From positions 1 to 23,542 of the forward strand of contig KN880758.1 in the NCBI GenBank assembly GCA_000934385.1: DNA of 23,542 nt, read 5' to 3'. Position 1 is the first letter of the stretch, and each line of letters starts with the position of its first letter. Under the pieces are notes generated by a model. It made no database searches. It saw only the letters and a list, made by a program, of their open reading frames with translations, and had not been told where the DNA came from. Source of the DNA: Cylindrobasidium torrendii FP15055 ss-10 (lineage: Eukaryota > Basidiomycota > Agaricomycetes > Agaricales > Physalacriaceae). This document shows positions 1,953 to 21,932 of this stretch, piece by piece. Both the position numbers and the translations under genes were made by a program.

Positions 1953-3513
1953 CTAAAGCCCCGGTGTACTGTTACATGGCATGAACCGCTGCACGTCCTT
2001 CAGTCCTTCGAAGGCCTTGCGCACTGCTCCCAGAGAGGTTAGGGCAAGTATGTGATTCCTGGCACCGTATCCTGGCGTAGTCCCATGTAGGTGGCGGGGC
2101 TTGAATGCTATGGTAGTTCCCACCGCCTGCTGGACAACTACACGCAGTGTACAGTCAACAAAGTTGGCTCCACAGCCAGATGGGAGTGCAGGCGAAGCTG
2201 TGCGTGCAAATACCCCCGCAAAGGCCCAATCCACCCATACTGGATCGATGTGTGTCCATGATTCATAGCCCACAGTCGCATATCCTTCCGGCGGGCACCT
2301 GTTTGCCAGTGGAAATGTGTATTCGGTGCCACCAAGATGAATAGTATATCCAGCACCTGGCTTTACATGTGCCGTAGCCATTGGCGGGTAGGGAAGGAGT
2401 GTGTCGTTTATTCGAGCAGTTACATCTGCCATAATCTCGGTAGGCATATTTGCATGCAGCATCGCCCAGAATATGGAGAGAGCGCCAATGAGCTCGATAT
2501 CCTGGCGCTCGCGCTCATCATCAGGTGTCGATGGCTTCAGAAAAGATTTCCCGTAGTCCAGCTGGGGTTTGTGCCGTGCACCCATAGAGAGGCCAATCTG
2601 CGCCATTGTGCCACCGTGTGTTGGCTTGCAGGAGTAAGTAAGGGCGGAAAATGGTGGAATGCGTCGGACGTACACGTTGATTGCGTCGGCAGGTGCATGC
2701 TTCGTCAATGACCCTCTCCATTGTTGCAAAGAAGGGGCCCTGGAGCTTGCTCTCGCCTGGCACATCACGGAGAACAACCAGCTCGAGGACGAGGGTATCT
2801 GCTCGAGTGAGTGAGCGTATATACATGGGTAACGACTCTAGGGGCGCACTTCCGTCACGCGAGACAAAAATGGCACTAGCGTCCGGGGCAAGGCTGTAGA
2901 AGTCGTCTGTCGAGACATCGATATATCCATGTGTAAGCCGGCACGAAGAAAGCTGTGCTGGATGCTCAACCAGGTCATAGCACCGCTTGTAAGAACTGGA
3001 TAGGGTGCAGAAAACAAGGTGGATGCTGTGTTTCTCAAGCATATGCCGTGCTGCACCCGCCTCGCCGAGCTCCTGTACTAAATCCTGGATCATGGCAGCC
3101 CCCAGTAGGGTGGTTGGCTGTGGGTGTGCGAGTAGAGAAATCTACAGCCGTTACGTCAGTGGAAGGGATCACTGGGTCGATGTATAGCTTACAAGCCTGC
3201 GCTTTTCTTGATGGGATGCCCGACCAGCGCTATGACGGGCATGCAGCCGACCAATCACAGGCCACAGGCTGTCCGTTATGGGTATTGCCTGCTTCGCACC
3301 AGCCAGGAAGTCTCCCCATACACCCCCAGCATAGAACGGGGGCATCTGCGGGCTACATGCTAGTAACCGCGCTATAATAGACATGTCGAGGCCCTCGGCG
3401 TCCATTATAACAAGCTCCTGAGCAATGCCATGCAGAAAGGCAACTACTAAGTGAGGGGACGCCACGAATATATCTGGTGCACACATACCGCTTTTACTCT
3501 TTTTCTTCCCCAT
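1953..3513 (-). CDS. 2-oxoglutarate/Fe(II) dioxygenase-like protein, possibly TET/JBP-type (472 aa)
   Basis: Model: exons 3513-3489, 3446-3193, 3141-2674 and 2624-1953; introns of 42, 51 and 49 nt start GTATGT, GTAAGC and GTACGT. The start MGKKKSKS sits in a good context (CCACCATGG) and gives a lysine-rich N-terminus. The C-terminal third has the features of the double-stranded beta-helix dioxygenase fold: an HxD pair in WTHIDPVWVDW (His374, Asp376), then LHGTTPGYGARN with the distal iron ligand His429 and Arg438 nine residues later, a spacing usual for the arginine that holds 2-oxoglutarate. Known: fungal TET/JBP relatives oxidise methylated DNA bases and in basidiomycetes are often carried by KDZ transposons (Iyer and colleagues, 2014). 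Inferred: assignment to that branch; another 2OG-Fe family is possible. Residues 1-250 match nothing I know. The intact motif suggests an active enzyme, perhaps acting on DNA or RNA. Confidence 0.6.
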
Positions 3514-4162
3514 GGTGGTGTGTAAGTGCGTTCTGCGATCGCAGCTGATTTTACAGCTCTTTTGCCGGTTTCTCGATCAATGTACAGCGTCGGCCAGCAT
3601 TTCCATTACCATTTGACTTAGTGGTCTGGTACGGCGGCCCTGTGTGTAACGGGCATGTCTTCCTCCGCTGGATCAACCCTGGGTGAATGCGCCTACCCTA
3701 CGAATTCATGAGACGGTTTTGCAGATTTTATGAGCTGACAGCTGCGGCTGACAGCCTTCGCCTACAGGGACCCGAGCGGCGAGTGACACGCGCTGACTCC
3801 TGAGCGCTGAGCGGGGGCGTCGAACGGCGGGTGCGTATTGCAGCAATGATGCAGACGCCTGTGAACACTTTCACGTAGGCTCGCTACCAGCCGTTTGACT
3901 CATCGACACCACGCTCATTTCTACGCCACTGCTCACTGCTGATCTTATTATAGACTGATCTGATCCTTTGATGTGATTTCGGTGATGGGCGCGCAGGGTG
4001 TCGATCGTCAACAGACCGTGCGCGCTCGACCCAGATGCCTCGCCCAACGCATCGCGATGGGCAGGTCTTCTCACCCACTCACACGAACGGTTGTTCTTTG
4101 GACACAGGGACTCTATTGCATCACAGGAGATCTAAGTTCAAGAGAGCCAGCAATGAAAGTGT
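3514..4162. other. intergenic between the dioxygenase-like and exon-array genes
   Basis: Upstream region of the dioxygenase-like gene and 3' flank of the large gene. No clear TATA box is seen ahead of 3513. It contains CTGAGCGCTGAG at 3800-3811, a word repeated exactly at 10876-10887, and one copy of a dispersed repeat (3983-4158). Confidence 0.5.
3983..4158 (+). repeat. dispersed repeat, copy 1
   Basis: About 85 percent similar by eye to the reverse complement of 12695-12872. The best part is 4016-4158 and includes CAGGTCTTCTCACCCACTCA and GAGCCAGCAATGAAA. It ends 5 bp past the stop codon of the large minus-strand gene. It codes for nothing recognisable and may be a MITE or solo fragment of another element. 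Confidence 0.7.
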
Positions 4163-7100
4163 TTATCCCATATTCGTCTGCCTGGCAGGGACTATATCTG
4201 TGATTTCTGTAGACGCCAGCGCAGCCTGTATCGACCTGGGAATGTATCAGTGCAGCGACATGAATACCAGCAGCTTACTCACTCCTGGACATACGGCGAG
4301 AAGTTGAGGGTGTTAAGATCAATGGCCGGGGCTACCTGCAGACGGTCGAGGGCCAGTGTATCCAGCCGCGCAAGATATGATTTCCGGTAGAAATTCCGAG
4401 GCAGGCCCAGCGGCGCAGGCGCATCATTCGTCCGACCTGTGTCAACGCGCCGAGCTGGCAGGGCCCCGCGCATACAATGTTCAAGGGTGCCACCACGGAA
4501 TCGGTGCATAGCATAGAGATAGTCAGCATAATGGAATAACCGTGTAATCCTTGCGTCGGGATTCCGCCACATGGGCGTGAGGATCTCTGTGGTCGATGTC
4601 ACGGGGTCCTCCTCGTCGTCGCTGGTACCACCGGTCCCCATTTTCCTTATCCAGGACAGGGCCCTTTTGGCCGAGGGATCCTGTATATGCCAGCGATACC
4701 CACAGATTCGGCGGTCGAGAAGCTACATGGACAGTGTTACGCCGTGTGAAAACCAGTCCATGAAAACATACCGACGCCTTGCGGGCCTTGGCATTCAGTG
4801 CAGGCTGATCCCGTGTGCGCGGGTGCGGATTTTTCGGGTGGTGGTCCTTGACATACTTGAAATATGTCGAAATTCGGCTGTAGAGCTCTCCTGGAAGTGT
4901 CCCAGCCGGGATGTATCCAGCATACTCTGATGATTTGAAACCTCTGACTATCAGTGCGCGCACATCCATGTTCCACCTTGTGCCGATGCTACCACTGAAG
5001 TCGATGCCAATAGTATCCATCGATGGCTTACGCCCACTGGGGTCGCCACGATTCCAGCGCTTGACATCCCGCTTGTGGGCACGGGTCAGTTTGAGCGAGC
5101 GTATGTATAGGTGTATGCCCTCCTGTCCCCTGCAGTGAGCATCACACGACCGACATGGAAGGTTGTGCCCCACCAGGAGCCTGTTCTTCGCTGATTTCGG
5201 GCCGGAGCGTGGTTGACTTGCTGCTGAACGTCTCGGTTTACGCTGGTTGTGAAAGAGTAAGCAGCAGATCCTCAGGATGCAGTCCTTCACTTACTCCTGG
5301 ATATTTGCGGTAATACTCTGTGTAGTCCGTATGATTTACGACGGCGCTGCTGTCCGAGGCAGGGTCGTCCGCATCATTCAATGGGTCACCGGGCTGGCTG
5401 TCTTCGTCATGAAGTGGCCTTTCCACCACGATGAAACTAGGGGGGGGAGGCACATGCGGTGGACGGTCTACTTGACCTGGAAGTGACATGCCTGGAGAAC
5501 ATCAGCGCAATAACATCAGAGAACGCAGGATTCACTATGTAGATCAGGCCCCTGCATAAATGTGCCATCAGAGTCCCTGCGTCTTCGTGGGGGAACGTGG
5601 GTGCTTCTAGAGGGCCCGGGCACGCTCTCCGGCGGATTAGCGGGCGAAGCATATGGGCTCGCCGTATGAGATGCCTCGTGACCACGTCGTGTTATGGGTT
5701 CCTTGGGAACAAAGGTTATGACATCTGGTTCAATAGTGAGGCGGCGCATGCAGGATCGAAAAGACCGCAACCATTGTATCCACGACTTAGCCACTGCTGT
5801 AAAGTACCCCTGTCGAGGCGGAAAAACATGTAGCGTTCTGGTGGTGGTACTGGGCCGCCAGCTCGTGCGAAGAGTCAGAACCAAGTCGGCTGATAGGACG
5901 AAACCATACCGGACACCGTAGGAGTGGGTCTATCGCCGTGCTGTTCACTGGCTACAGGATGCCTTGTGGAAAGGATAGCAGGAGAAACACTGCAGGAAGA
6001 TAGGGAAGAGGGTGCTGATATGGTTCAGAAGACTGAGCACCCAGGTCAAATGTACAGAAAGCAATTACCTATGTGGGGGTAGGGCGCCGTTCGCGAGGCT
6101 GCAGGCGTGGGATAGTCGTTGGTGGTTTGAGGCCGCACATTATGCGAGACTAGATGGCGAGGGACTTCATTGTATACAGAGACCTCTTCATCGTCTGCGC
6201 TGCGAAAAGGGATGGCGGACGTCACATTGATGAACGAAGGCGGGAGAGGAACTTGAACGGGTTGATCTGAGGTTATGCAGTCATCGAGTCGTGGCGACAC
6301 AGCGATACATACCTGATGGACTGCCGGCTGACACAGGTAATGCCCTTTCAGCGGATGGTTCGGAGACCACACTCACTGCTTCGGTAAGAATATCAGTGTG
6401 TGGAGGCTCAAGGAATGATGCCGGCAGCGGGATAGAGGTATCAAATCCACTGCCTGTGACATATTAGGACATTCCGACGAAAAAAGCGGCGGTACATACC
6501 TCTGGAAGAGCGAACGGGCAGAACAGGCAGGGGTTGTTGCACTAGTAGCCGAGCACCCATGTCGTCGGCGACTTCCTCGATGACGGTCGCAAACGGTACA
6601 CTGAGGAAAGTAGGCGGGAGAGGGGCTTGAACGAATGGATCTGAGGTCATCCAGCCGTCGAAGAGATCCAGTGTTACATACCTGATGGATTGTTGGCTGT
6701 CGCAGGCGATGCTCTCTTCGCGGCTGGGTTGGGGCCTGCATTGGCTGCTTCAATGAGAATTTCGGCGCGCGGGGGTTCGAGGAATGACACTGGCAGCGGG
6801 ATAGCAGGATTCAATCCAGTATCTGTCAATTATGAGGCCATGCAAGCAAAAACAGCGACGGTACACACATCTGGAAGAGCTAACGGGCAGAACAGCCGGG
6901 GGATGTTGCACGGGTAACTGAGCATTGATGTTGTCGGTGTCTCCCTCGATAATGGTGGAAAATGGTGCATTGTAGAACGGGGGTGGCGGATGAGCATGAA
7001 GAGGGTGATCTAGTATCGTTCAGACATACATCCCCACACAGAGAGTACTCCATACTTGGGATTTTGGCGACTGGCAAGACCGTGGGTGTTCCCTGCTTGG

Positions 7101-10100
7101 CAACAAGGTCGGGCTCCATGTGCTCCTCCTGTGGTAGCACAGTGGCCGAGCGCATCGTATCTACATGTGTTAGCAGTTGTCATGTGAAATGGCGAGGGAA
7201 CTCACCAACAGGACAGCCAACAGACGAGTGCAGTGAACAATATTCTTCGCTCGTCTGAGCATCCATGTCATCGTTGTCTTCCTCAATGACGGTCGCAAAC
7301 GGTGCACTGAGGAACGAAGGAGGGAGAGGGGCTTGAACGAATCGATCTGGGGTCATTCAGCCATCGAGTCGCATAGAGCCAGTGTTACATACCTGATGGA
7401 TTGCTGACTGCCGCAGGTGAAGCTCTCTCTACGGCTGGTTCAGAGCCTGCGTTGGCTGCTTCGATAAGACTTTTGCCGTGCAACGGTTCAAGGAATGGCA
7501 TTGGCATCGGGATGGCAGAAGTCAGTTCTGTAACTGTGACTTATGAGGATATGTCAGCGAGAGAAGTAGGAGTACGCACCCCCAGAAGAGCGAACAGGCG
7601 GGGATTGCTGCACGAGTAATTGAACATCCATGTCGTCGTCATCTTCCTCGACAATGGTCGAAAATGGTGCATTGAAGAACGAGGGTAGCGGACGAGCATG
7701 AAGAGGGTAATCTAGTATCGTTCAGACATACATCCACAAACAGAGAGTACTCCATACTTGGGAGAGTGCCGGCTGGCAAGACCATGGCTGTTGGCTGCTC
7801 GGCTGCATGCCCGAGGTCCATCTGTCCTTCATGTGAAGGCTCCGGTATAGGGGCGAATGTAATTGTATCTGCACTCGTGAGTAATTGTCATACAATATGA
7901 AGGGTGAAATTACCTCCAGCAGAGGCAACGGGCAAATCCAGTGGCCGATGTTGTGCGAAGTCTTGTGCATCCATGTCATTGTTGTCTTCCTCGACGATGG
8001 TGGCGAACTGGATGCTCATGAATGACTGTGGTGGGGGACAACCAGTAAAATCATCTAGTGTCGTTGAGACAACTATTCACACACAGAGAGTACCCCATAC
8101 CTGGAAGCATGCCGCCTGGCGAGACCATGGGCGATCCTTGTTGAAATACACATTCAACGACCCGCATAGGAGCGGGTGTAGTCATATCTGTGTTGGTGAG
8201 TAATCGCCATATAGCATGGCGAGGAGGATCACCTTCAGCAGGCGATCCCAGCGACGAGTGTCCCACATAGTATTGAACATCCATGTCCTCCTCTTCATCC
8301 GCATTCGCAACTGTGGCAGTGGACGGCACATCGAGGAAAGAAAGCGGCAGAGGAGTGCGAAGAGATGGAGCTAGCACACTTCAGACATCTATTTACACGC
8401 TCAGAATAGTGCATACCTAGAAGATTTTCCGCTGACGAGACCACGAGCGTTCCCGGTTCGACTCCATGTTTGGGACTTGGGTGCCCTTCTTCTGCGTGCT
8501 CAACGACTTGCATAGGAGCGGGTGTAGCCATATCTGCATTCGTGAGTATTTGCCATACAGCATGATAAGGGAAATCACCTCCAGCAGCAGGCGAACCCAG
8601 CGGCGAGTGTCCCACATAGGATTGAACATCCATGTCCTCCTTTTCATCCTCATCTGCGATGATAGCAGTGGGCGGCACGCTTAGGAAAGAGAGCGGTAGA
8701 GGGGTGCGAAGCGAGGTATCTAAAGCACTTCAGAAATCCATCCAGAGTGACATAGGAAAGCATGCCTGGAAGATTGTGCGCTGGCGAGACCATGGGCATT
8801 CCTTGTTCGACTGCATGTACGATGTTTCTCTGTACCTCTTGCGAAGGCTCAACGACTACCACAGGAGCGGGTGTGATCATATCTAGTCATGAGTAATAGT
8901 CACACAGTATAGCAGGGATAGTCACCTCCAGCAGCAGGCGAACCTAGCGACGAGTGTTCCACATAGGGTTTAACATCCATGTCCTCCTCTTCATCCCCAC
9001 TCGCGATTATGGCAGCGGACGGCACATCGAGGAAAGAAAGCGGCAGGGGAGTGCGAAGCAATGAAGCTACCGCACTTCAGACACCCATTTACAAGCACAG
9101 AATAGTGCATACCTGGAAGATTGCCCGCTGACGAGACCACGGGAATTCCTTGTTCGGCCGTATGCATGGTATCTATCTGTCTCTCCTGTGAAGGCTGTAC
9201 GACTGCCACAGGAGCGGCTGTAATGATGTCTGCACTTGTAAGTGACTTTCACACATAATATCGGGGAATATCACCTCCAGCAGAGCCGACAGGCGAGCCC
9301 ATCGGCGGGTGTTCTACGAAGCCTTCGGCATCCATGTCATCACTGGCTTCCTCCATGACGGTGGCGAACGATACACTCAGGAACGACTGTGGCAGAGGAG
9401 CAGGGACAGGTTGTTCTAAGGTTGTTTAGAGATCCATTCACACAAAGAGAGAAGTGAATACCTGGAAGGCTGCTGCCTAGCGGGACCATGCGCGATTCCT
9501 GCTCGGCTGCATGTTCGGGGCTGATTTGCCTTTCATGTGAAGGCTCAGCGGCCTTCACAGGAGCGAGTGTAATCATCTCTGCATCTCATGAGGAATTGTC
9601 GCACAGGATGGTGGGGGGAATCACCTCCAGCAGAGCCAGCACGCGAGCCCAGCATCAGGTGTTCGACGGAAGCCTGAACATCCATGTCCTCATCACCGTC
9701 CTCATTTGCGATTATGGCAGCGGAAGCCACGCTGAGGAAAGAAAGCGGAAAAGGAATGCGAAGCGACGAATCTAACACCCCTTAGCCCTCCATTTACACG
9801 TACAGAGTAGTGCACACCTGGAAGAGTGCCCACTGACGAGACCATGGGCGATCCCTGCCCGACCGTATGTTCAGAGTCTGTACCAAGCGCACCTGCAAGT
9901 GAGCCGGACTATTTGATTCCATAAGACAGAACACACTTACCTGGTGAGGCGCCACTCTCACGGATGTCGTCCTGCGCGGCAGCATTCTCGATGTCTTCAA
10001 CGTCGTCGCTGCCAGATGGGATACCTGCAGCGACCGCATCACCTGCCGCTACGAATGGGCCGCTAAGCAGTGCTCCAGTTACAGGTACTAGTGAGACCGC

Positions 10101-11215
10101 GCGAAGCCCAGGTATCTCGCCATCCTGTTGGTGGGGTTCTGGATTAGACCAGGAATCGAGCATTGAGTGATCAGACAGCCCATGGTTTCCTGATGTTTGT
10201 TCAGATTGTTTCGTCCCTGCAAATAAGCCCACATCATCTGCTAGCAATTCGGAGTTTGGGATTGATCCCATTCTGTCGTTATTGCGCTGCGCAGAATCTT
10301 GATAACGCTCTATGTGAGTCCAAACACGATCATGCGGTTCAACTAGAAGTACGTACCTCTAGACTGCATGTCTGCCTGATATTCCCTGTTCCCGGAAGCT
10401 TCGACCTCAACCTGCGACCTGATATCTTCATAGAGCGAGGTATCTATCGTGGAAGGATGATATGTTACACCAGACGCTTTACTTTGTGATCCAACGCACC
10501 AGCCGTCATTTGGGCGTCCTCTGCTAGCACATGATCGCTGTACATAGTGGATGATAAACCATGTGTATCCGTCGGCGCTACCACGCCTCCAGGATTCGTG
10601 GTAAGAACGAATAGTTCGCGAGAGGAACATTGTACAACGCACCTGTTGGTACTGGTGACTGGGTGGCTGGTCCTGGAATTGCAACATTATTAGCCTGAGG
10701 ATTAATGGCTGCTATAAATGGATCAGGACAGTTTAATTGAGGTGGTTGTGCGCTTTACTGTGGCTGGCCGTATCCTGATCATGGTGGTGAAAAGCGACTT
10801 GCAGCGATCGGGCTGACGCAGGGTAAACGTTAGCTCCATAATCCCGTACTCAAGTGTCAACGTCAACGCTGAACACTGAGCGCTGAGCACTGCCTTTGAC
10901 TAACTTGTTCTTGGATACTTCGCATGAGGTCTGCTTACTGCTGGCTGGTTCAGACAATCGTTTCCTCCCGTGCATGTTCTCGTACCACGTGGTTGTTCTT
11001 GATCTGGCGAAGTTATGGTCAGCGAATAGTGTTCATAAACTAGATACGACAAGTGGTCCTTTTGAATTCAAAGGATGATACTGACGGTGGTGCCTAAGCT
11101 TTTGTCTTTTTCTGTCTTCTGAATCCGCAGAATACATCGTGCTGCGCGCGCCCTCTACGGAGACTTCGCCTTCTGACGCCGACCCTGGAGAGCTTGGGCG
11201 TTTGTTCCTCTCCAT
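4163..11215 (-). CDS. large modular protein encoded by a 36-exon gene with a tandem exon array (about 1778 aa)
   Basis: Five-prime exons: 11215-11082, 11003-10939, 10848-10759, 10711-10643, 10586-10500, 10443-10357, 10309-9941. Then 22 array exons (9892-6069, listed separately), then 6014-5910, 5861-5772, 5724-5536, 5491-5295, 5242-4772, 4722-4283, 4235-4163. All junctions join in one frame. Residues 1-300 are polar and disordered, with a nuclear-localisation-like RKRQKLR at 35-41. Residues 301-1257 are about 11 degenerate module pairs built on P-L-P-x-S-F-L and acidic D/E-rich cores. Residues 1258-1778 end in a basic, folded-looking domain with CRSCDAHC (Cys1481, 1484, 1488), GIDFSGSIGTRWNMD and RRICGYRWHIQD; I do not recognise it. 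Weakest parts: exons 1-3, the GTTGCG donor at 5771 and the last exon. Several genes in tandem is possible, but the preserved phase across every junction favours one transcript. A nuclear scaffold or regulator is only a guess. Confidence 0.65.
6069..9892 (-). repeat. tandem array of 22 alternating short exons (11 B-A pairs)
   Basis: B exons: 9892-9818, 9578-9462, 9229-9113, 8882-8766, 8533-8417, 8187-8101, 7868-7758, 7533-7393, 7160-7056, 6822-6682, 6453-6313. A exons: 9771-9625, 9415-9275, 9066-8926, 8719-8579, 8370-8233, 8054-7914, 7711-7580, 7346-7206, 7009-6869, 6640-6500, 6266-6069. The favoured lengths are 141 nt (seven A and three B exons) and 117 nt (four B exons); all are multiples of three and all junctions are phase 1. 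Introns are 41-46 nt. Pair period is 314-373 bp, commonly 346-349. A modules read P-L-P-x-S-F-L-S-V-P followed by an acidic EEDMDVQ-like core and a G-S-P tail; B modules read TPAPVxVVEPS, a charged middle, and PMVSxAGNLP. Pairs 3-5 are the most alike. Confidence 0.85.
6454..7868 (-). repeat. higher-order duplication: two 4-exon blocks of about 708 bp
   Basis: Block B7-A7-B8-A8 (7868-7161) is repeated as B9-A9-B10-A10 (7160-6454). B7 and B9 share an unusual end (CCAA|GTATGGAG) and nearly identical introns (44 of 46 bases). B8 and B10 share the long 141-nt form with IEAANAG and the ending NPSG. A8 and A10 share FVQAPLPP and FATVIEE but differ in their tails; the A10 tail resembles A9, which suggests conversion. 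Confidence 0.7.
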
Positions 11216-12694: not shown

Positions 12695-12872
12695 TTTCAT
12701 TGCTGGCTCTTTCCAAACCTGAGATCTCCTGTAATATGAAGAGTTCCTGTGCAAAGCAACAACCGTTCGTGTGAGTGGGTGAGAAGACCTGTCCCAACGC
12801 GATGCGTTGGGAGAGGTATCTGGGTCGAGCGCGCACGGAGAGAGAGGTGACCGACAACCCGTGTCGCGCTTT
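12695..12872 (-). repeat. dispersed repeat, copy 2 (inverted relative to copy 1)
   Basis: The reverse complement matches 3983-4158 at about 85 percent by eye, including the shared CACACGAACGGTTGTT and ACAGGAGATCT words. Similarity fades on both sides, and no terminal inverted repeat or target duplication was found. Confidence 0.7.
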
Positions 12873-13640: not shown

Positions 13641-15185
13641 CTAATAGATATCTACACTAACTTGATTACGGTAACTTTTGCCACACCCCCAGTTACTATA
13701 CCCCTGATATGCGAGATATACAGTAACACCATCCTCTTCAAAGTGCATAAGGTCATCTTCCAGCGTACTATGGGTCCAGGCGGTGTTTCGCTCCTGCCAG
13801 TACGTCCTGATGCCATCATACTCTTCATCAGTGTATGTCGACGAAGGCCGACATAAGCGCCCCGCATTCCAGATTGTCAGCGCCAGGGTATCCAATACCG
13901 AGCCATTCATGACTCTTCGAGAAGCAAGCATGCTGCGCAACAAGGCGAGCTGATCGGCAACTACAACCAGAGAAAGAGAGCGAAGCAAAGGAAGGTTAGG
14001 TGCATGGAGGAATTCGAGTACACTGTCCGGGAGTGAGGGCACTGAACCGAATGTGTAACCGTACTCTTCGAAGTGGTGGAGCGAGAGTTCCGTCAAGCTA
14101 CTCTGGCACATTAAGATCTGGGTCATATCCTCGGAGAGCGGCCCATGCCACACGGACAGACGTTCGAGAGAACAGTGGCGAAAGAAATCCAGGTCGGAAT
14201 CATCTGGATCTTCCGGCCATGATGGGATGGGTATATCTTCTGTACGCTGGTATGATGTGTACTCCAGGGTCTTGAGCGCGGGAAATGTGAAAGAAGACAG
14301 TGCGTGCGATTGGCTGGGGTTCTCAATATACAGCACCTCCAGAGAGAAGTGCTCAACGTGCTCTTGTGAAACGTCGAGTCCTCCCCAAAATTCATCCTCC
14401 AAGATAGTCCCCACCCGAAGCTCCCTCAGGGTTGGAATGTCCCGGAGCATGTGTACGACCCAGCCCAGCGATAGGGACTTCGAGCTCAAATGAGTGAGGT
14501 GCAGGGAAAGATCGATGACATCCGCGTGCCCGTCCAGTAGACTGATACAGCTGACGCTGAAGTTGGTCCGCACCTCCCGCAGACTGGGCAAACAAATCAA
14601 GGAATACGCCCAGACTCGGGTGTTGGACGCAGGGGTATTTGAACACTTGTATGAACGAAGCCAGAGCTGGGTGATCCGGCCTGCCACCCAAACCTCTCGA
14701 AAGTCGATCCACCGCGAATGATCCAGGATTGAAGCCTGAGGCAGATAAAGAAGGAATGCGGAGGATTTTGCAAAGTACTTTGGAAGAACGCGTAGCAGCT
14801 TGTCGAGCTTTACACTGCCGTGCTCGGGGAGCACATCCGGGTCAACATGGCATAACACGCGCAATGGGAGGATACCAGCTCGGTGCAAGATAGTCCCGTC
14901 CTCGATATGCGGAGGGATGCATCCATCGCCACTCAGATGTAGAACGATAGTGCGCCAGAACTCTGCGGTCAGAAGAGTCGCCCCACGAAAGCGCCTGTCA
15001 ACGAAACTGATTGATGACTGCATACAGGCGACGCGTCTTGGTGCAGTGCACTTGTCGTTCTCTTCATCAAATGCTATGGCATCAAGGAATGTCGCGTCCA
15101 CGGCCAGTGTGAGGATGCTTGAAAGCAGCTCAAGATGGAGTCGCTTTATCGGGGGGGCGTTTGTATCGTCTGATACACCACGCAT
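13641..15185 (-). CDS. F-box-like/leucine-rich-region protein (514 aa)
   Basis: A single intronless frame from ATG at 15185 to the stop at 13641. The N-terminus has an F-box-like helix set at about residues 12-85: L-H-L-E-L-L-S-S-I-L, then S-F-V-D-R-R-F-R and the tryptophan region AEFWRTIVLH, which is the pattern of Agaricomycete F-box proteins. The rest has irregular leucine-rich segments (LPSLREVRTNF, LRELRVG, LRSLSLVVV). Known: F-box proteins bind Skp1 and bring substrates to SCF ubiquitin ligases; Agaricomycetes have hundreds of variable copies. Inferred: function of this one. It is paralogous along its whole length to the broken gene at 20084-21598. It is more likely a passenger than an element function. 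Confidence 0.8.
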   Translation of the reverse strand: MRGVSDDTNAPPIKRLHLELLSSILTLAVDATFLDAIAFDEENDKCTAPRRVACMQSSISFVDRRFRGATLLTAEFWRTIVLHLSGDGCIPPHIEDGTILHRAGILPLRVLCHVDPDVLPEHGSVKLDKLLRVLPKYFAKSSAFLLYLPQASILDHSRWIDFREVWVAGRITQLWLRSYKCSNTPASNTRVWAYSLICLPSLREVRTNFSVSCISLLDGHADVIDLSLHLTHLSSKSLSLGWVVHMLRDIPTLRELRVGTILEDEFWGGLDVSQEHVEHFSLEVLYIENPSQSHALSSFTFPALKTLEYTSYQRTEDIPIPSWPEDPDDSDLDFFRHCSLERLSVWHGPLSEDMTQILMCQSSLTELSLHHFEEYGYTFGSVPSLPDSVLEFLHAPNLPLLRSLSLVVVADQLALLRSMLASRRVMNGSVLDTLALTIWNAGRLCRPSSTYTDEEYDGIRTYWQERNTAWTHSTLEDDLMHFEEDGVTVYLAYQGYSNWGCGKSYRNQVSVDIY

Positions 15186-16060
15186 ACTACTTGATCATCA
15201 GAATCAGAGAACTAACAGAGGAGGATTATCATGGGCGTACATAGCGAGCGGTGTTGAAGCTTATGTATGAGTGGCGAAGCTGGGCGTTTCTTTCAAAAGC
15301 ATAAGTAACCCGGGGCAATGATCAGTCATGGCAATTGAATGGCCCGAACAAGGCAGGCATAGCCACTGATGTGTGCTCAAGCGCTCACCAGCACTGGTGT
15401 ACTTAACTCATACTGGTAACTGGAAAGCAGCATTGGACGCAATGGACGCGATCTCGGAATCCTGATAGGAGCAGTAGCAAACCAGTGTAGCGGGGACAGC
15501 CCGAGGGGACAAGGAGGACACAGAAGGATGAGGCGCACGTGGCGCGTGTTTACGAATGTTTAGACCATTTCCATACACGGTAGAGTGGCAGCGGTGGCCT
15601 AGATCACATCACGACGACGACGCCCGAGACAATCCCTCATTTGCTCTGTGCCCGCTCCACCAGTAGGGAAAGTCCCTACATCACACGTCGAGAATTTCAA
15701 CGCTGTTTGTTATAGCATGAGTATGCAATGCTGTACGTAGAACAGGAGCTACTAAACACCTTGAAAGAAGTAGAGTGCGTGACACGCAGCTCGCATGTTG
15801 CCTCTTGAAGAGTCACAGATCTTTGCACAGATAACAATTCAGATGACCTGACGCACTTGGCCCTCCTGTGGCCCTCACCTGGCAGATCGTTGTTTGTTAT
15901 TCTCGTCGAGCCCGGGAAAGCCAACAACTGCTCCAACCATGAATATTTGAATGGCAGCCTTGTACAGGGCCCTTTCGGAGACAGGGTCCACGCGGTTGTG
16001 ATTAAAGGCGGATTCGTATATCACACGGCCGGAAATCGAATCGCTTCGTCTCCTGCCTCC
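15186..16060. other. intergenic, nothing recognised
   Basis: Divergent upstream region between the F-box gene (minus) and the two-exon gene at 16061 (plus). Open frames here are short and unconvincing. The frame of the downstream gene is open back to 15857, but the residues upstream of 16061 look non-coding. No clear TATA box was seen. Confidence 0.5.
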
Positions 16061-16797
16061 ATGTCTTTAAAGCGGCAGCTCTCTATTACATTCGATGACG
16101 GGCCGCCGCGCCTCGGCCGTCGCTTAGAGCGGGAGGATAGCTACCTGCTGCGCATGGAAGAGGGCGTCCGAGCACTACGCACGCAAATCCATGACCCGAC
16201 TCGAGGGCCTATCAACTCCGAGAACGAACTCCCGTCCGCTCACATCGCGACCAAACCAGCGCCAGTTGTCCCCATTTCTGGCCCGACTCCGCCGCCATCG
16301 CCTCCACATATGAATGCTACCACTTCACCATCAGCCGGAGATCGTGCAGCCGTCTCTGACATAAGTGGACACCTGCCGTCCCATTCAGAGGCCACTAGAT
16401 CACGCACGGGGTCACGTGTACCCAAGTCGACCGACACAAACATCCGCACAACTGCAAAACGCGCAACGAAGAAGCCTCTCCCTCCCGTGGCTCCATCCGG
16501 CTCAAATAGACCGGTCAAAGCAAAAGGCCAGACCGCGGACCGCTATCGCAAGGAGAAGTACCGCGACCGTGGGAGTATGACTGCTAGGTAAATGACCACT
16601 GCATGTACTTATGCAGGTTGTCCTCAACTTTTCTTAGGTCTCTTTTTGGACGGGTATATCAAAAGTCCCACCCTGCATGTACAAATGGAGACGTTAACGA
16701 TGCATGGGCCAAAATCGAAAAAACCGCAGAGGCGGAGGTATTGCTCTATTATCTTGAGAGCACCAATGCTAAATATCCTCTAGACATACACTGCTGA
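16061..16797 (+). CDS. basic, mostly disordered protein of unknown function (2 exons, 228 aa)
   Basis: Exons 16061-16587 and 16638-16797 are joined across a 50-nt intron (donor GTAAAT, branch-like CTCAAC, acceptor CTTAG). Without splicing the frame would stop at the TAA just inside the intron; with it the protein continues through SLFGRVYQKSHPACTN and AWAKIEKTAEAEVLLYYLE to a proper end (DIHC, TGA). The N-terminus starts MSLKRQLSITFDD and has a charged helical part (about residues 25-45). The middle is rich in Pro, Ser, Thr and Arg with KKPLPP, and a basic cluster (DRYRKEKYRDRG) precedes the intron. The C-terminal 53 residues look folded and helical. I do not recognise the family. It could be nuclear or nucleic-acid binding, judging only from charge. 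It is one of three inferred intact genes on the plus strand, counting the left TIR gene. Confidence 0.6.
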
Positions 16798-20083: not shown

Positions 20084-21598
20084 TCAGTATTCATTCTGCC
20101 CAGCACCGAGCATCTGCCCAAGCTCTCGCGACTTCCCTGGAGCGGAGCTATACCCTTGATACGTCAGGAACACCTCGGCTCCTAGCTCTTCCAGGGCCTC
20201 CAGAGCACTATCCAAGAATTGATGGTGCATCCAACCGTTGTTTCTGTTCTCCCAGTAAATGCGGGCCGCCTCTGCTGCCCCCGTCTCTCCAGACTCGGAT
20301 GACACTAGCGGACGCCCCTCATTCCACACTGTGATCCCAAAACAGGACAACGGCGCCAAACCCACCTCGGTGGCGGCTATCCTGGATCGAAGCATCCCAC
20401 AAAGCTGCTGCAGCTGGGCCTCCACGATGACCAGAGAAAGAGAACGCAGGTTCGGGAGATTAGGGGCATAGAAACAGGCCAACACTTCGTCAGGTAGCGA
20501 GGGTCCAGTCCTCATGTCTGGATCCCCGTGCAACTGATGATGACAGAAAGAAAGCTCCTCCAATCCTACTAGCATAGGTAGAACGGACGCCATACGGATG
20601 CCAAGGCACCCGTGCCACGCGACAAGACGACGAAGGCAGAGATGGCTAGCCTGGAAAAACTCGACGTCCGCGACATGTGGCCATAGTGGGTCGGCATCAC
20701 GGTAGTTGAACGGCGCAAGATCCAGCGTCTTGATGGACGGCAGTGTGAGGTATTTCAAGATGTTGACACTGGAGGTCTCTGTAATACAAAGTGCCTCCAA
20801 GCGTGGGTGTACCACGTTGTGGTGGTCCTGGTGTGGTCCGTAAATATGACCGATCCTCAATTCTTGCATTAGGGGTGTAGCCTCGAGAAGAACAACACCC
20901 AGAACACCACAGCGTCGCCAAGGGCGAGGTGTGTGAGGTATGCGGAAACCGATGCGGAGTTGAGGGCGGTTCCCTCAGAAGACCAGCTCTTCGAGTTTGT
21001 GCTGATGCGCCGTAGATTGGGAAGTCGGAGGAACCCTTGGACCCACTCCGGGCGGCTGGATTGCGGCACTTCGGGGGGGGCGGCTGTACGACCTGAAACC
21101 AAATTGTACCACTTTCTCCTTCCTGGGAATCGACTCGACCAACGAACTCCATCGTCTGTCTCCGAGTATGGCGACGTCCGGGAGGTAAAGCAGGATAATA
21201 GAGGCCCTGGACAGATAATCGGGAAGGACACGGAACATCTCGCCAAGGTTGACGGCGGGCAGGGCGCTGGGTGGTATATAACATAGCACGCGCAACGGAA
21301 GTGCTCCGGCTCGTCGAATAACCTCGTTGTTTGCGACTCCAGCTGCAAGCGAGCCACGGCGATCCGGCTGTATCACAACAGTTCTCCAGAAAGCAGGATT
21401 CAATGCGTCGCGGAATCGAGTCGAAACCAGCATAATTCGACGCTGTTGTCGCGCAACATGGAGCGCGGCGGTGCATTTATTATAGACTTCGTCATAGAGA
21501 AATGCGTCCCAGAAGGCGTTTTCGAGAGCAAGGAGCAGGATCTCGCCGAGTACTTCCGAGGGTAGAGCGTTGATGTCCGTGACTTGAGGCGCGTCCAT
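20084..21598 (-). pseudogene. F-box-like paralogue with two compensating frameshifts
   Basis: Aligns along its whole length to the intact F-box gene at 13641-15185: start MDAPQVTDINALPSEVL (ATG at 21598), FWRTVVIQ, GALPLRVLCYIPP, then LPNLRRISTN, MQELRIGHIYG, APNLPNLRSLSLVIV and VFLTYQGYSS near the end. Two single-base shifts break it. The first is in a run of eight C on the minus strand (21073-21080), which behaves as one base too many. The second, near 20890, behaves as one base missing. They cancel, so only about 60 codons are out of frame and both ends share one frame. Either a recent pseudogene or a sequencing error at the homopolymer. The N-terminal F-box-like helices and the C-terminal leucine-rich part are well preserved, so decay is recent. 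Confidence 0.7.
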
Positions 21599-21932
21599 AA
21601 TCCTAGAGCATCTCAGGGAAATGAGTTCGTCTGCAGCCAACGGAGAGACGTTCCATACCTGCGATGGCGAGGATGAAAGCAGATGGAGAAAGGACCAGAG
21701 TTACACATAGACCATGTGCATGAGTGTCCAAATTACCATACATGGTGCCCTGCTGCCACTGAGGCTGCTGGCAATTGGCGTAGATCAGGGGAGCTAGCCG
21801 ACGATCAATTGAACAAACCATAAGAATGGGGCTGCACGCCTTACATAACCGTACGTACTTACAAGAATATGGGTGACAGTGAATGCTGTGTTCAAGGTGC
21901 CCTGCCTCATGCGCCTCAGGTAAGCAGAGGAT
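21599..21932. other. intergenic between the F-box paralogue and the right TIR
   Basis: Upstream side of the F-box paralogue. Nothing recognisable. The right TIR begins at 21933. Confidence 0.5.

Follow-up and report, generated by a model that had tools for sequence, protein, structure and literature searches.

Contig KN880758.1 of Cylindrobasidium torrendii, analysed here over its entire length of 23,542 bases (the window), carries on its minus strand a predicted gene with an array of 22 exons at its centre (9892-6069). In the curated gene model, 11 exons of one type (A) alternate with 11 exons of a second type (B), and the 21 internal introns are 41, 43, 45 or 46 nt long and are each in phase 1. 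All 22 exon lengths are divisible by three and ten distinct lengths occur; differences between exon lengths are always multiples of three, whereas those between intron lengths are not. The original prediction, made from the letters of the sequence, had described two exon types alternating 11 times with introns of 41-46 nt, every internal exon from the third to the thirty-second being a multiple of three and in phase 1 on both sides, and the curated model bears this out for the whole array. Adjacent exons are homologous to one another, as are the introns that go with them, and the copies all keep the same order and strand.

The automatic and the curated models both place A1 (9818-9892, 75 nt), B1 (9625-9771, 147 nt), A2 (9462-9578, 117 nt), B2 (9275-9415, 141 nt), A3 (9113-9229, 117 nt) and B3 (8926-9066, 141 nt) on the minus strand. 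Between ~8882 and 8101 the automatic phase-1 model placed different introns or read through, and the curated model was set there by eye against the other copies, a procedure that biases it toward regularity. This concerns the end of A4 (8766-8882, 117 nt), the whole of B4 (8579-8719, 141 nt), the start of A5 (8417-8533, 117 nt), the end of B5 (8233-8370, 138 nt) and the start of A6 (8101-8187, 87 nt). Further downstream both models again contain B6 (7914-8054, 141 nt), A7 (7758-7868, 111 nt), B7 (7580-7711, 132 nt), A8 (7393-7533, 141 nt), B8 (7206-7346, 141 nt), A9 (7056-7160, 105 nt), B9 (6869-7009, 141 nt), A10 (6682-6822, 141 nt), B10 (6500-6640, 141 nt), A11 (6313-6453, 141 nt) and B11 (6069-6266, 198 nt), the last of which carries an insertion and an extended tail. 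A8, A10 and A11 form a subtype, here denoted A'.

The array is bordered by introns of 48 nt (9940-9893) and 54 nt (6068-6015). Upstream of it the curated model has four exons on the minus strand (10708-10643, 10577-10500, 10443-10357 and 10309-9941), all multiples of three and in phase 1, and downstream another four (6014-5910, 5849-5784, 5724-5536 and 5491-5295), where the automatic phase-1 model cuts 6014-5536 otherwise. The last of these contains a B-like motif (E = 0.00078 for a search size fixed at 100). Two exons complete the model, one of 157 amino acids with a phase-0 intron on either side (4772-5242, minus strand) and one encoding a C-terminal domain (4285-4722, minus strand), whose 3' end is provisional, as is the gene stop.

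Splice signals accompany nearly every copy. All 22 introns examined end in CAG or TAG, and a branch-like CTNAN or TTNAN site is present in 19 of the 22; in 18 of those its distance to the 3' end is 10-11 nt. The intron that follows A4 (8765-8720, minus strand) is GC-AG and the other array introns are GT-AG. Donors begin with GTATG in 8 of the 11 introns after A exons and with GTG in 8 of the 11 after B exons, so that the earlier description of the donors as interchangeable was loosely worded.

One strand and one intron phase

A gene model restricted to phase-1 introns scored 123.8 on the minus strand, versus 30.1 for phase 0 and 25.1 for phase 2, and single-phase scores on the plus strand ranged from 21.6 to 27.9. 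Across 40 dinucleotide shuffles the highest score was 40.5 for phase 1 and 55.1 for whichever single phase did best. This shuffle comparison covers the single-phase scores; with phase left free, the minus strand scored 135.0 and the plus strand 70.8. Since the weights of the gene model were set by hand and the repeat copies are not independent of each other, the score shows which strand and phase are right, not a number of independent origins. When phase was left free, one weight set returned phase 1 at 17-18 of 20 array introns.

Over the 957 codons of the spliced array the phase-1 frame is free of stops, whereas the other two frames contain 24 and 35. Likewise, the curated 32-exon model from 10708 to 4285 stays open throughout its 1645 codons, and its other frames have 44 and 72 stops. 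It contains 29 consecutive phase-1 introns, from 10642 to 5535, followed by two in phase 0. The run shrinks to 27 if 10708-10357 is a single exon, as the automatic models read it; in our judgement the three small phase-1 exons are to be favoured over this competing exon, because their translation resembles the rest in composition. Outside the repeat, a phase-free program still assigns phase 1 to six introns (at 10356, 9940, 6068, 5909, 5783 and 5535). A phase-1-only chain can be extended upstream to a total of 34-35 introns, and free-phase chains score higher there. Thus the long phase-1 run of the original prediction exists, with 27-29 introns counted, and its figure of 31 is possible but not established.

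Constraint on the copies and the C-terminal paralogs

Selection was assessed by the ratio of nonsynonymous to synonymous divergence (dN/dS) and by parsimony changes at the three codon positions. The 11 B exons have a pooled dN/dS of 0.50, with 85, 87 and 123 changes at first, second and third positions (one-sided p = 0.0017). For the eight ordinary A exons dN/dS is 0.87 and the changes number 48, 54 and 54 (p = 0.40), and for the three A' exons the values are 0.50 and 19, 21 and 27 (p = 0.14). These data show that the B exons are under purifying selection, and the ordinary A exons look like neutral spacer. The constrained motif of the B exons is PLPxSFLxxP...(E/D)EDxxDMD. B copies are at least 13% apart, and 40% on average over 55 pairs, indicating that the array is not an assembly stutter.

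A noncoding satellite, or a separate short gene for each A/B pair, would account for the part of the repeat in which copies follow in tandem at a constant spacing of 347-349 nt. It would not be expected to stand out so strongly in a single strand and a single phase, to accumulate an excess of third-position changes in its B exons, or to have a phase-1 run that extends into the flanking exons on both sides, and we regard this explanation as very improbable.

The 534 residues encoded by the B exons include 80 acidic and 19 basic residues, three cysteines and no tryptophan, with proline, serine and alanine most frequent. The product would be a long, acidic tract rich in these three residues that, to judge from its composition, is probably disordered.

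Searches of the organism's own genome (29.3 Mb in 494 contigs, the window being the entire contig C328) identified paralogs of the C-terminal domain on contigs C168, C106, C345 and C377. The domain matches a profile of these four paralogs with E = 9.5e-12 for one sequence, and 15 columns are invariant across the five rows. A phase-0 intron lies immediately upstream of the domain in all five loci, the junctions having been inspected by eye. The preceding exon, compared with the paralog profile, gave E = 0.09 for one sequence, which is not significant. In the paralogs, a single open stretch of 297-432 codons precedes the domain, and no repeat of at least 50 nt was found in any of the four loci (8.0-9.9 kb per locus), indicating that among the five genes the array is peculiar to that of the window. 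A further match on C42 (E = 0.0118) was inspected and excluded from the paralogs.

Pfam gave no match for either part of the array gene, and for the paralog pieces a single match below cut-off, Ribosomal_60s (E = 0.31). A structure prediction of the C-terminal domain from the five sequences was too poor for a fold search, with a mean predicted local distance difference test score (pLDDT) of 43.7 and a predicted template modelling score (pTM) of 0.28. The exon at 5242-4772 (minus strand) has no family match; within a basic stretch it encodes the CxxCxxxC cluster CRSCDAHC. For the 3' end, a KDZ-type transposase with a cysteine cluster was considered and dropped, as neither Pfam nor NCBIfam returned anything for the downstream exons. 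The genome as a whole contains 10 DUF6533 and 36 KDZ-transposase matches; neither family gave a match in any of 14 control genomes, and both are typical of Agaricomycetes, in keeping with an agaricomycete.

In the protein database the C-terminal part found no relative, nor did a paralog used as query among the ~8,000 candidates sharing most words. That even a paralog conserved within the genome finds nothing suggests that such empty searches reflect sparse fungal coverage rather than novelty.

Proposed growth of the array and predicted splicing of its exons

In a large share of the array's 5' portion the copies recur with a period of ~349 nt (347-349). Towards the 3' end, units 7-8 recur as units 9-10 at an offset of 702 nt, with 82% identity across a 244-nt stretch. 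This alignment is patchy: the tails of B8 and B10 are dissimilar, and the B10 tail resembles that of B9. The pattern is that of a mosaic, left by duplications or exchanges that overlapped. On the minus strand, the intron following A7 (7757-7712) and the one following A9 (7055-7010) are only 4% apart, and the adjoining B7 and B9 exons 19% apart; the near-identity could be due to an exchange in the recent past or to constraint acting on the introns themselves. A short PLPxSFL-like stretch is common to the A' and the B exons (E about 0.006 for A10 and A11), and a comparison of the A' and B profiles gave a probability of only 9.9%.

The likeness among introns after A exons (a7 versus a9 differ by 0.04, a8 versus a10 by 0.12) would also be expected of introner-like elements, that is, of self-multiplying introns that cut a continuous coding repeat. 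Here, however, the exons were duplicated together with the introns, in the same units. Moreover, a degenerate intron pattern matched one site in the genome, which lies inside the array; the pattern is insensitive, having recovered only one of the array's own introns. We give this explanation hardly any weight.

Together, the homologous exon-intron copies and their symmetric phase give good support to the exon duplication in a short-intron gene that had been proposed for this locus. We consider it highly probable that the array belongs to one protein-coding gene on the minus strand that grew as an A-intron-B-intron module was copied in tandem within it, time after time, and that is constitutively spliced, with the repeat tract preceding the C-terminal domain. 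A module of ~349 nt, composed of an A exon, a short intron, a B exon and a second short intron, would have been duplicated in tandem repeatedly by unequal exchange or slippage, each event adding roughly 75-95 residues and carrying the intron ends along. The frame would have been kept every time, since A and B exons alike have phase 1 on both sides. A later duplication of 702 nt (four exons) and exchanges within exons may then have produced the mosaic, while selection would maintain the B motif. All exons would normally be joined in the mRNA, and the many copies of PLPxSFL...EEDxxDMD could provide multivalent binding to a partner, with the A exons serving mainly as spacers; any function of the B motif is a guess.

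Several observations weigh against this reading. Transcription and splicing of the array are predictions from the DNA, the gene model was set partly by eye, and the start codon, the stop codon and the first exons of the gene are provisional. With the initial weights the free-phase model placed phase 1 at only 13 of 22 array introns, and the initial free-phase automatic models divided the array differently at several places. Some of the closest B pairs are near-neutral (dN/dS of 0.92 for B3-B5 and 0.76 for B7-B9). Introns after A exons have a mean p of 0.384, versus 0.397 for B exons and 0.492 for B third positions (55 unit pairs); as the introns are no more diverged than the B exons, it would be too simple to regard the exons as islands of conservation. 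Among the candidates scored, the organism's own genome yielded no relative of the array, nor did the protein database among the ~8,000 candidates sharing most words, and the disorder is predicted from residue composition.

The near-neutral recent pairs, the lack of a third-position excess in the A exons and the GC donor would also fit a pseudogene or decaying repeat, an array that formerly coded for protein and is now unexpressed. Such decay is difficult to reconcile with the constraint on the B exons, with length changes that are all multiples of three, with splice signals retained in nearly every copy, or with 957 array codons and 1645 curated-model codons free of stops and frameshifts, and we consider it quite unlikely.

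Whether the exons are joined in more than one way bears on the statement of the original prediction that any exon can be skipped or joined to any other without a frame change. For forward joins this holds: all 231 among the 22 exons preserve the frame and contain no stop. Hence A and B cassettes could in principle be skipped or joined variously, and a spliceosome working on very short introns might choose among 22 frame-compatible cassettes to yield a family of many isoforms from one gene, with cassette number and content also varying between strains. The symmetric phases and the weakness of some donors, including the GC donor, are consistent with this. However, symmetric phase is demanded by duplication anyway. 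In Dscam-type clusters, duplicated exon copies are alternatives for one slot and one is chosen per transcript. The array shares with such clusters tandemly duplicated exons within one gene, but its two types alternate serially and differ in constraint, arguing against a mutually exclusive slot. Introns of 41-46 nt also suggest that recognition spans the intron, and where short introns are recognized in this way retention, not skipping, is the usual variant. Retention would break the frame at 16 of the 21 internal introns. In Schizophyllum commune, exon skipping is put at 1% of splicing events in coding regions, with intron retention commonest, although a looser junction count gives 1,527 skipping events within coding regions (PMC5034255). 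We therefore regard combinatorial splicing as unlikely, and constitutive splicing of the array would be expected.

The growth of a fungal exon array has a precedent on a smaller scale. In the open-licence literature, as far as titles and the beginnings of abstracts reveal, no fungal gene of this layout was recognised except CNN00420 of Cryptococcus neoformans (Sharpton et al. 2008). According to that report, a repeat of ~107 nt comprising exon ends and a whole intron has expanded in this basidiomycete gene, introns 3, 4 and 5 are identical, copy number varies between strains, and expressed sequence tags support splicing (PMC2395259). CNN00420 is the nearest fungal precedent found, a gene of six introns, five of them identical or nearly so (PMC2395259), whereas in the array, compared by layout, two exon types alternate over 22 exons, the B copies are 40% diverged on average and the phase-1 run continues through the flanks.

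As for the layout itself, animal genes provide known examples, elastin among them. Human tropoelastin is described as having 34 exons with alternating hydrophobic and cross-linking domains, and phase 1 intron/exon borders are mentioned (PMC3458006), so that alternating exon classes and phase 1 borders are common to both. The comparison is one of layout: tropoelastin is an animal extracellular matrix protein, whereas the array encodes an acidic, Pro/Ser-rich sequence with few basic residues. The PEVK region of human titin, with 113 annotated exons, likewise consists of a long series of small repeat-encoding exons derived from exon duplication, which the cited paper attributes to slippage, recombination and mobile elements (PMC6469411), and its repeats are stated to be disordered (PMC9100103). 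It differs in having arisen through duplications of larger segments in a giant muscle protein; the text of the titin PEVK paper does not mention intron phase (PMC6469411). By analogy, the array may be said to resemble elastin and titin PEVK in architecture, without family membership.

As such, the array would be a large and clean fungal example of gene growth by exon duplication. With copies of graded age, two differently constrained exon types and repeat-free paralogs in the same genome, it could provide a test system for growth permitted by symmetric intron phase, for the persistence of short introns through duplication, and for whether coding exons are skipped in a fungus of this kind.

Other features of the contig

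The two ends of the contig (1-1626 and 21917-23542) are inverted repeats of 1626 nt that are 100% identical and contain open stretches, the longest of about 130 codons. They are either a genuine inverted duplication or a product of faulty assembly; elsewhere in the genome, among the candidates scored, only their first 39 bases were found, on C490, and no full copy. On the minus strand, two related genes (13644-15194 and 20087-21700) are 44% identical over 144 residues and have additional copies on C478 and C86. The second of them, seen as a pair of open stretches that differ in frame, has an F-box-like match below cut-off (E = 0.043). A 260-codon open stretch without a Pfam match lies on the plus strand at 15809-16588. 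Downstream of the array gene, the minus strand at 1956-3576 contains exon-like open stretches of 135, 206 and 294 codons, with no Pfam match above cut-off, that appear to belong to another gene. The array gene itself is flanked by a 46-nt inverted repeat (4016-4061 and 12793-12838), the two arms of which are 93% complementary and 8.7 kb apart.

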